The translations under genes and the position numbers were made by a program. Shown here piece after piece: positions 5,388-31,551 of a stretch of 64,000 nucleotides of DNA. Position 1 is the stretch's first letter, and every line of letters starts with the position of its first letter. Source of the stretch: Ridgeia piscesae. Its lineage: Eukaryota; Annelida; Polychaeta; Sabellida; Siboglinidae. Under the pieces are notes generated by a model. That model was not told the DNA's origin. It worked only from the letters and a program-made list of their open reading frames with translations, and ran no database searches. The DNA lies in the NCBI GenBank assembly GCA_025642075.2, contig JAODUO010000651.1, forward strand, positions 126,001-190,000, in the 5' to 3' direction.

Positions 5388-8300
5388 TCTGGCTGGTTGC
5401 GCTGCTCTGCTCTGCTCTGTTTGCTCTGCTGCTGTGCTGCTGCTGGCTGCTGCTGCTGCTGCTGCTGCTGGCTGGCTGTGGCTGGGCTGGTGGCTGGCTG
5501 GTGGCTGGGGTGGTGGCTGGGTTTGGTGGGTGGCTGGGTTTGGTGGGTGGCTGGGTTTGGTGGGTTGTTTGGTGAATGAGTGATTTATAATAATACCAAT
5601 ACTATATACCCACAGTTGAACGTATGCTATAGTTGTCAGTAAATAGTAGTATATTTACTCTTAAGTACAAATACTTTAATTTTAAGTGTGCTTTGAGTAA
5701 CTATCCACAGGTTACTTGCACTTTTACTCACGTGAACAACAACTGCACCTGTCCCAGCTCCACCCTCTCACCTTGTTCACTTGTGCTTACAGTCGACGCG
5801 CTACAACTACAGCAGTGCAGAGAAATTTGGCCTCATTGAGGTGATCGCAATGATCAAAGGGCTGCAGAACCTGATGCTGCGGATGGAGTCGGTGCTGATG
5901 GACGCCATCCGCAACCATCTGTATGCCGAGGTCCAGGACTTTGTACAGGTGCAGCTGAGAGAGCCAATGAGGAAGTCGATTAAGAAGAAGAGCGAAGTCA
6001 TCCGCAGGTGCGTTCTGGCTCAGTTGCTGTGTCATTGGTTGTCAGTCCTGTTTGTAAACATTATCCTTGAGCAGTTGAAGATGAATGTTTTCTTTAAAAT
6101 TATATATATATATATATATATTATATCTTTTTAGATTAAATATATGTAAACTTATTGTGTTTCTATTATATATTAGTGTTTATTTAATTTTATCAGTTGT
6201 ATATTATATATTTATTATATATGACGTGTTCTAACGAAATGAGTCGTATGTCAGCGAACTTGATTTCGAGAAAACACCGCATAAACATGCAACGATGAAT
6301 TTAGATGATTTAGACTTTTTGTCACCAAAGTATATTTTGGTATCTTTTTTTCAATTGGCAATGCTTATTTCTCGTTTATATTTTTATTTAGTACATTTTA
6401 TAGCCTTTTTAGACACACTATGTAACATTTCACGCATGAATTTCATAAAACAGAACCGCTAAATCGCACTAGTTCATGTCGCATTCTTTGGGGTTTCCCT
6501 CAACGCATGGCAGACTTATTTGGTACTACAGGAAAGCCCTGGACGCCCTCTTTCGGATTCTTGTAGTAGAAATCCCCACTGACGTCAGTGTAAGCCAACA
6601 GCAGCGCTTAATGCGAGAGGCCTATCTGTGAATAAACATCACTAGACGCCGTGAGGAGCTGACAGCAGGGCCCTGATTGGCTTAGAGCTGTGCGCGCAGG
6701 CGCAGTGCGCTCTCGCTAGCCGTAAACAACTTGGAATTGATCGGGTTGCTGCTACAAAACATTGCTAAATACTCGGATTATGTTGTAATAATTTTAGTAA
6801 ATAGTTAGCATGATATATCTTCGACAGCGAACATGCCTTTGGTAGTTTATTTCGAATGCATCAAATGGAGTAATAGAAGCAAAATGGCCGATTTTGGATC
6901 GACAATGTACTCGACTGCGTGCTTATGTGACCGCGAACTTCAAATGCGTTTTTCTCCGTTTGACACTTTCTACCCTAGGCATGTTCAGCGTCCAATAACT
7001 TTGGCTGTGTGTGAGATATCTCCATAATTTTTATACCGTTGGAAAGATTAATACATCTTCTTTCCAATGGTGTGACTAACTCAATTTATTATTTTTTTGA
7101 CATACGACTCATTTCGTTAGAACACGTCACATATATTTAAAAAATTGCTACATGTACAGGCTACATGTGTTTAAAATTGCACATGGCATTATAAACTTTT
7201 GTTGTAATATTATAATTTTGACATATGTTATAGTATCATTGTGTCTTTGTGATAGTATTATCATGTCTATATATTGGTATCATCATGTCTGTGTTGTATT
7301 ATCACAGTGCCTGTGTTGTAGTATAACTGTCTGTGTTGTAGTGTCACAGGGTGTTTTAGTATCACAGTATCTGTGTTGTAGTATCACAGTATCTGTGTTG
7401 TAGTACCACAGTGTCTGTGTTGTAGTATCACAGTGTCTGTGTTGTATTATCACAGTGTCTGTGTTGTAGTATAACACTGTCTGTGTTGTAGGATCAATGT
7501 GTTTGTGTTGTAGTGCCACAGTGTGTTTAAGTATAACAGTATATGTGTTGTAGTATCATAGTGTCTGTGTTGCAGTATCACAGTGTATGTGTTGTAGTAT
7601 CTCAGTGTCTTTGTTGTAGTATCACAGTGTCTGTGTTGCAGTATCACAGTGTATGTGTTGTAGTATCACAATGTCTGTGTTGCAGTATCACAGTGTCTGT
7701 GTTGTAGTATCATAATGTCTATGTTGTAGTATCACAATGTCTGTGTTGTAGTATCATCGTGTCAGTGCGGGAGACGTGTGCGGACTGGCTGCAGGGGGTG
7801 CAGCCCCGGGATGACCCCGCCCTGCACGGCAAGAAGGACGGAGACGACAACTTCCACATCCGAGTCCCTCGACGCAACGTAGGACCCTCAAGTACACAGG
7901 TGGGTGGATCTATGTGGTGTATCACATGGTGTATCAATGTGTATTTGTACATGGTGTATTACATGGTGTATCAATGTGTATTGTACATCATAACATGGTG
8001 TATCACATGGAGTATCAATGTGTATTTGTACATGATGTATAACATGGAGTATCACATGGTGTATCACTGTATTTTTGTACATGGTGTATTACATGGAGTA
8101 TCACATGGTGTATTAATGTGTATTTGTACATCATAACATGGTGTATTACATGGAGTATCACAATTAGTATCAATGTGTATTTGTACATGGTGTATTACAT
8201 GGAGTATCACATGGTGTATCACTGTATTTGTGTACATGGTGTATTAAATGGAGTATCACATGGTGTATCAATGTGTATTTGTACATGGTGTATCTCATCA

Positions 8301-31551: not shown

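Follow-up and report, generated by a model that had tools for sequence, protein, structure and literature searches.

Introns of the CYFIP gene of the siboglinid Ridgeia piscesae carry tandem arrays that lie at exon-intron borders. By their anatomy, these arrays are mirage-type repeats in an annelid, and they are unusually dense in CYFIP. We put the probability at roughly three in four that they are mirage-type minisatellites that began as duplications, grew neutrally, and are tolerated because splicing takes place at the exon-side copy.

Arrays at the exon borders of CYFIP

The DNA analyzed (the window) is a stretch of 64,000 nucleotides, positions 126001-190000 of contig JAODUO010000651.1 (C651, 567,428 bp); coordinates below are those of the window unless a contig is named. 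Within it, 26 exons joined by GT-AG introns give one open spliced CYFIP frame of 1165 aa. The model is 100% identical over its length to the deposited Ridgeia piscesae NP493_652g01000, and exon 13 matches PDB 3p8c (CYFIP1). Amphioxus was considered as the origin of the DNA and rejected on this identity. Tandem Repeats Finder (TRF) reported 13 arrays in the CYFIP introns at minimum values of 100 bp for array length and 7 for the period; rows below either cutoff were dropped. In 10 of the 13, the array either covers a splice junction, as 6 do, or has an end no more than 21 nt from one. The arrays near junctions occupy introns 8, 9, 10 (twice), 11, 15, 16, 22, and 24, and a single copy lies in intron 25.

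944..31550, plus strand: CYFIP gene, 26 exons in the window and at least one exon further upstream, outside the window
C651:125609-125800: upstream N-terminal CYFIP exon
7226..7767, plus strand: array A, with 25 copies of a 22-bp unit, extending across the exon 9 3' splice site (7752)
7903..8298, plus strand: array B0, degenerate, begins 3 nt past the donor junction of exon 9; exon-derived sequence was looked for and not found
8312..9201, plus strand: array B, with 40 copies of a 22-bp unit that includes 12 nt of exon head, extending across the exon 10 3' splice site (9190)
9287..9994, plus strand: array C, with 11 copies of a 65-bp unit, extending across the exon 10 5' splice site (9343/9344)
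10251..16415, plus strand: array D, with 75 copies of an 83-bp unit, extending across the exon 11 3' splice site (16380)
16483..17371, plus strand: array E, 23-bp unit, begins 20 nt past the exon 11 donor and only abuts it
21105..21352, plus strand: array F, 39-bp unit, 6 copies, stops 2 nt short of the exon 16 3' splice site
21560..21963, plus strand: array G, before exon 17 (21962), TRF extent 21741-21963
27848..28397, plus strand: array H, 32-bp unit without exon head, 18 copies with TTTG(A/T)CAG
29563..29837, plus strand: array I, with 11 copies of a 25-bp unit that includes 11 nt of exon tail, extending across the exon 24 5' splice site (29573/29574)
30962..31000, plus strand: J, one diverged copy of the tail of exon 25, within intron 25

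An earlier sequence-only reading had placed arrays in about ten introns of this gene. TRF recovered the arrays named there at nearly the same positions, one of them (21560-21961) only as 21741-21963; the count of introns comes to nine, eight with arrays plus intron 25 with its single copy, and a second array in intron 9 (7903-8298) had been missed. Of the 13 arrays, 3 remain: one at 5341-5566 is a CTGG/GCT compound, and the others lie within a transposon-like stretch of intron 19 (23800-26080), which has TTCGATACC repeats and TATCGAT-rich ends. A degenerate interior repeat in intron 21, at 26830 and 27278, is absent from the TRF output.

How much of these units comes from the exons? A unit of array A consists of 8 nt of intron and 14 nt of exon head, and one of array C of 57 nt of exon tail and GTTAGTAT. 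In array D, 49 nt of intron with the acceptor are joined to 34 nt of exon head and the following unit starts with GTAAGT, so that each unit looks like a pseudo-exon of 34 nt flanked by an acceptor and GTAAGT; about 70 of these lie upstream of exon 11. When each exon edge was compared with its intron, 7 of the 50 CYFIP exon edges had exon-derived copies scoring above every one of 200 dinucleotide shuffles: the 3' splice sites of exons 9 (A), 10 (B), 11 (D), and 17 (G) and the 5' splice sites of exons 10 (C), 24 (I), and 25 (J). The copy at J scored 43, whereas the best of its 200 shuffles scored 22. As an interior control, windows from array-free parts of introns were searched for a second copy in the same intron; 12 of 253 had one (7 of the 12 in intron 19), a lower frequency than at the edges (P = 0.02).

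Matching each unit to all exon edges of the same side gave a similar picture. The units of A, B, C, D, and I fit best at their own junctions, with an exon content of 14, 12, 57, 34-36, and 11 nt, respectively. Those of F, G, and H also fit best at their own acceptors, with scarcely any exon match, and no exon content was found by this matching in E and B0, both of which only abut a donor. Array G extends beyond its TRF extent; this remainder was read by eye and by the exon-edge search, and it holds an old copy (21599-21624) matching the acceptor and exon head. Exon-derived sequence is thus present in six CYFIP arrays and the single copy J. The similarity of F to its exon is weak, and H shares the acceptor only, the exon 23 acceptor (28409) being the last of the TTTG(A/T)CAG series. 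The statement that all of the arrays abut or derive from a splice junction therefore holds for abutting, to the extent of 10 of 13 within 21 nt, but not for deriving, given B0, E, H, and F. Spread of one repeat family was considered and rejected: the units are not alike, and for 8 of 10 the best fit among all exon edges of that side is at their own junction (B0 is ahead by one point only, and E ranks third). Identity to the junction copy drops with distance in all six arrays tested, significantly in one only, and we set this gradient aside as a weak signal.

Copied splice sites and the CYFIP reading frame

Splice signals are retained in most copies of six CYFIP arrays: 21/25 in A, 36/40 in B, 10/11 in C, 18/18 in H, 10/11 in I (GAGTG), and 72/75 acceptors in D, where CAGAGAC is kept in 72 of the 75 copies and GTAAGT occurs 72 times within the array. 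Array F keeps CAG solely in the copy adjoining the exon (1/6). Can any of these copies stand in for the real splice site? Every one of the 161 decoys tested (acceptors: 20 in A, 35 in B, 71 in D, and 17 in H; donors: 9 in C and 9 in I) led to a premature stop in CYFIP, as did inclusion of one to three of the pseudo-exons of array D. The CYFIP protein is 81% identical to two relatives in a gapless alignment. Because all tested decoys truncate CYFIP and the protein aligns without gaps, the exon-side copy should be the one used. On the basis of frame and homology, CYFIP splicing presumably ignores the copied splice sites; for donors, exon-side use is predicted from the frame in C and I only.

Exon definition would be what achieves this choice, and there is a human precedent. 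Intron 7 of the factor VII gene contains 37-bp donor repeats of which only the most upstream donor is normally used, according to the available text of PMC6627357. The donor is tandemly repeated in both systems; factor VII is a single locus whose donor choice is reported from splicing work, whereas that of Ridgeia is inferred. The CYFIP arrays constitute a natural test of exon definition, with dozens of near-identical sites at which a wrong choice loses the protein.

Placement of arrays in CYFIP and six other genes

Uniform placement in the present introns, under which 0.84 arrays would be expected within 21 nt of a junction, proved too easy a null. It is unfair because arrays lengthen their own introns and because junction overlap is frequent when a long unit sits in a short intron. 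We replaced it with a more generous collapsed-intron null, in which each array is collapsed to one unit and placed at random, with junction overlap allowed. Under this null, 4.2 of the 13 CYFIP arrays are expected within 21 nt of a junction (10 observed; P = 5e-5), and 2.6 of 13 are expected to be exon derived (6 observed; P = 0.013). The excess of exon-derived arrays in CYFIP over chance is modest.

A second, diverged CYFIP gene lies on the same strand about 42 kb downstream of the first (C651:199845-225160). It has six arrays, four of them within 16 nt of a junction, and arrays with units of 88 bp and 44 bp span acceptors at which the corresponding exons of the first gene are free of arrays. 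Taken alone, with exon ends set by eye as in the five genes below, the paralogue shows no significant enrichment within 21 nt (4/6 versus 2.0 expected, P = 0.087) and no excess of exon-derived arrays (2 versus 1.5 expected, P = 0.45). A search for a second haplotype contig found none; sequence of exon 24 occurs in two places, CYFIP and its paralogue. Farther along the contig, C651:243-249 kb and 292-298 kb are similar stretches with matching open frames and a common 36-bp array unit, which suggests a local segmental duplication.

Five further genes were chosen by protein homology alone, blind to arrays: two HSP90 genes, EF2, EFTUD2, and kinesin-1. For HSP90, EF2, and kinesin, weaker matches on other contigs were left out, except an EF2-like gene on contig C781 that is EFTUD2 by its sequence; for EFTUD2 exons, tblastn matches with E > 0.001 were not used. 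EF2 has one array with a unit of about 73 bp (TRF reports 146), in which four upstream copies carry an acceptor and exon head matching the real one at 21 of 22 nt. EFTUD2 has five arrays. Two span junctions (an 18-bp unit at a donor and a 29-bp unit at an acceptor), two lie 7-8 nt from a junction, and one lies at 41 nt; four neighboring TRF rows were merged as 126402-128536, and the donor of exon Eg is an estimate, the exact exon end there being uncertain. One of the two kinesin-1 arrays stops 6 nt before an acceptor and the other is about 60 nt from one (by eye), beside an intron whose length is an estimate. TRF found no array of at least 100 bp in the two HSP90 genes (14 detected exons). Introns with junction arrays thus number 8 of 25 in CYFIP versus 0 of 12 in HSP90 (P = 0.036).

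In these five genes, 6 of 8 arrays fall within 21 nt of a junction versus 1.8 expected (P = 0.0016), and exon-derived arrays number 3 versus 1.3 expected, which is not significant (P = 0.11). The expectation that array ends would coincide with exon edges genome-wide, as far as these five genes cover it, is matched in placement but not in density, the HSP90 pair lacking arrays of at least 100 bp. When all seven genes were pooled, 20 of 27 arrays were within 21 nt of a junction versus 8.0 expected (P = 7e-8), and 11 of 27 were exon derived versus 5.3 expected (P = 0.005).

One potential explanation for such numbers is chance plus a filter: tandem duplications arise at random, exonic ones are purged, and intronic or junction ones survive, with long units in short introns overlapping junctions often. 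The 5.3 expected exon-derived arrays mean that about half of the 11 observed need no special process, and the paralogue alone is compatible with chance. The placement within 21 nt in the pooled genes argues against this explanation, and we judge it quite unlikely.

Alternatively, minisatellites may arise anywhere in an intron and expand until selection on the exon or splice site halts them at the junction. Intron 9 is almost wholly occupied by two arrays (B0 and B), and E, B0, H, and F reach a junction or come very close to one but contain no clear exon sequence, in keeping with such boundary-limited growth. It does not by itself yield 11 exon-derived arrays whose units include, in register, some 10 to 57 nt of exon, and arrays A, E, and I touch their junctions while most of the intron is left free. 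As an account of the arrays, we regard it as unlikely.

Could the copies have been written by the assembler, through gap filling or misassembly beside well-assembled exons? The published R. piscesae assembly is described in the available text of PMC9921365 as built from Illumina reads with SOAPdenovo and GapCloser, with a contig N50 of 10.4 kb. Two EFTUD2 exon edges beside arrays (locus L041, C781:121440-121470 and 123920-123930) show, by eye, apparent frame-breaking differences of 2 nt and 1 nt, which are either consensus errors in repeats or real changes, and array B has only 15 distinct copies among 40. The build analyzed here, with 628.0 Mb in 4875 contigs, differs from the 574.96 Mb given in that text and is probably another build. 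Runs of N within 264 kb of C651 terminate on a 2,500-base grid, a regularity expected of masked stretches. The copies differ from one another (44/75 distinct in D, 22/25 in A, and 18/18 in H), unlike the product of looped gap filling. Although copy numbers may be wrong, false arrays are a very improbable explanation.

Origin, precedents, and further loci

Our preferred reading remains a duplication origin at the border, and its steps would be as follows. The start would be a short duplication that reaches from the exon, or from right beside it, into the intron; slippage or unequal exchange would then multiply the unit into the intron; selection would retain only the copy touching the exon; and the splicing machinery would pair the two splice sites nearest the exon body, skipping the other copies. 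If these are skipped, the array would be nearly neutral at any length. Direct repeats shared by exon and ancestral intron at the wrap point were found in two of seven arrays tested, both in the paralogue (8 nt and 7 nt), and none was found at the wrap points of A, B, C, D, and I. Microhomology at every wrap was accordingly dropped as a general feature, and the two cases suggest slippage between short direct repeats as the origin of some arrays. The sequence-only reading had also proposed that the arrays arose independently. The differing sequences and lengths of the units, the use of both 5' and 3' sites, and the other units at other acceptors in the paralogue support an independent origin.

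Does a process at splice junctions seed them, as that reading had further claimed? It is plausible but not proven, since arrays that merely abut a junction could be intronic arrays stopped by selection on the exon, and part of the excess comes from long units in short introns (the 2.6 of 13 expected in CYFIP). Part of the pattern is explained by chance and by arrays whose growth halted at the exon. Breakage or slippage linked to the junction, the halting of growth by the exon, and chance followed by purging may all play a part in the preference for junctions. A bolder version, to which we give somewhat less than even odds, is that Ridgeia splice junctions are hot spots of tandem duplication, where a junction-linked process, convergent with that of amphioxus, seeds border minisatellites across many genes. 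The resulting stocks of ready-made pseudo-exons, some 70 of them in a single CYFIP intron, would then be a lasting supply from which new introns and exons could arise.

Amphioxus mirage minisatellites had been named as the nearest precedent, correctly, and they are in print for several loci. In the available text of PMC3087553 and PMC3902484, these loci are Adh3, the globins BflGb6 and BflGb9, PGBD5, and troponin C, with retinol dehydrogenase and presenilin cited as similar; the Adh3 findings are taken here via PMC3087553. The repeats described there lie across exon-intron borders, at both 5' and 3' sites; the units measure 10 to about 160 bp, and AG/GT signals occur in many of them. The Ridgeia arrays share border-spanning copies (the 11 exon-derived arrays), the use of both borders (A, B, D, and G at 3' sites and C and I at 5' sites), units that differ between loci (18 to 88 bp in those 11 arrays), and, in A, B, C, D, and H though not in F, AG/GT signals in most copies. 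They differ in belonging to Annelida, in occupying eight introns of one gene, in reaching 75 copies, and in that the distance from array to junction was compared with a chance model. Mirages are further marked by length differences among haplotypes, somatic instability, and mRNA that is normally spliced.

Related repeats are described in other genes. Introns of amphioxus VCBP3 hold complete or partial exons, some with splice sites, beside the exon resembled; unlike the Ridgeia arrays, they are not described as tandem in the available text of PMC2632668. Earthworm metallothionein introns hold minisatellites, with no border duplication described in the portion available (PMC12783039), and tandem repeats are mentioned for amphioxus huntingtin without being placed at splice sites in the accessible part of PMC2206037. 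The term "mirage" in PMC7960049 and PMC9912274 denotes a transposon group, and "tandem repeat" and "minisatellite" are absent from the available text of PMC10192322, PMC8789280, and PMC6862839. We found no report of border-repeat mirages outside lancelets in the literature searched, which is weak evidence of novelty because subscription papers lay mostly outside the search.

A model for mirages in which introns are gained by tandem duplication that copies splice signals is laid out in the available text of PMC3087553. Array D units carry both an acceptor and a donor. The potato RdRp gene is reportedly a case of intron gain by tandem duplication of splice signals. Border repeats may be one source of new introns, and Ridgeia offers a second genome for testing models of intron gain by border duplication. 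Annelid mirages that are dense in one gene and present in others would mean that the cause is general or that such repeats have arisen more than once.

As a genome-wide marker, tandem GTAAGT failed: at 21-bp spacing it is rarer than the reversed control (433/766 versus 1604/2493), with no excess over the reversed pattern. Of 1199 places counted for a donor-repeat pattern, 13 (15 loci) were read, a set that is not unbiased, and 10 of the 13 have arrays. At three loci (L030, L033, and L034), donor-spanning arrays follow an open frame; the exon at L033 is the sole one of these confirmed, as DUF4215 (28.3 bits versus a gathering score of 27). At a fourth (L031), the array stops 17 nt before an LLGL exon. 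No exon was visible to the eye at 6 of the 10 loci with arrays. A 20-bp array at C7:24000-29511 (L035), with no exon seen alongside, has approximately 278 copies or more and covers at least 5.5 kb. Within the window and outside recognized genes, two arrays of one 46-bp unit lie about 9 kb apart, at 41189-42528 and 51808-51950.
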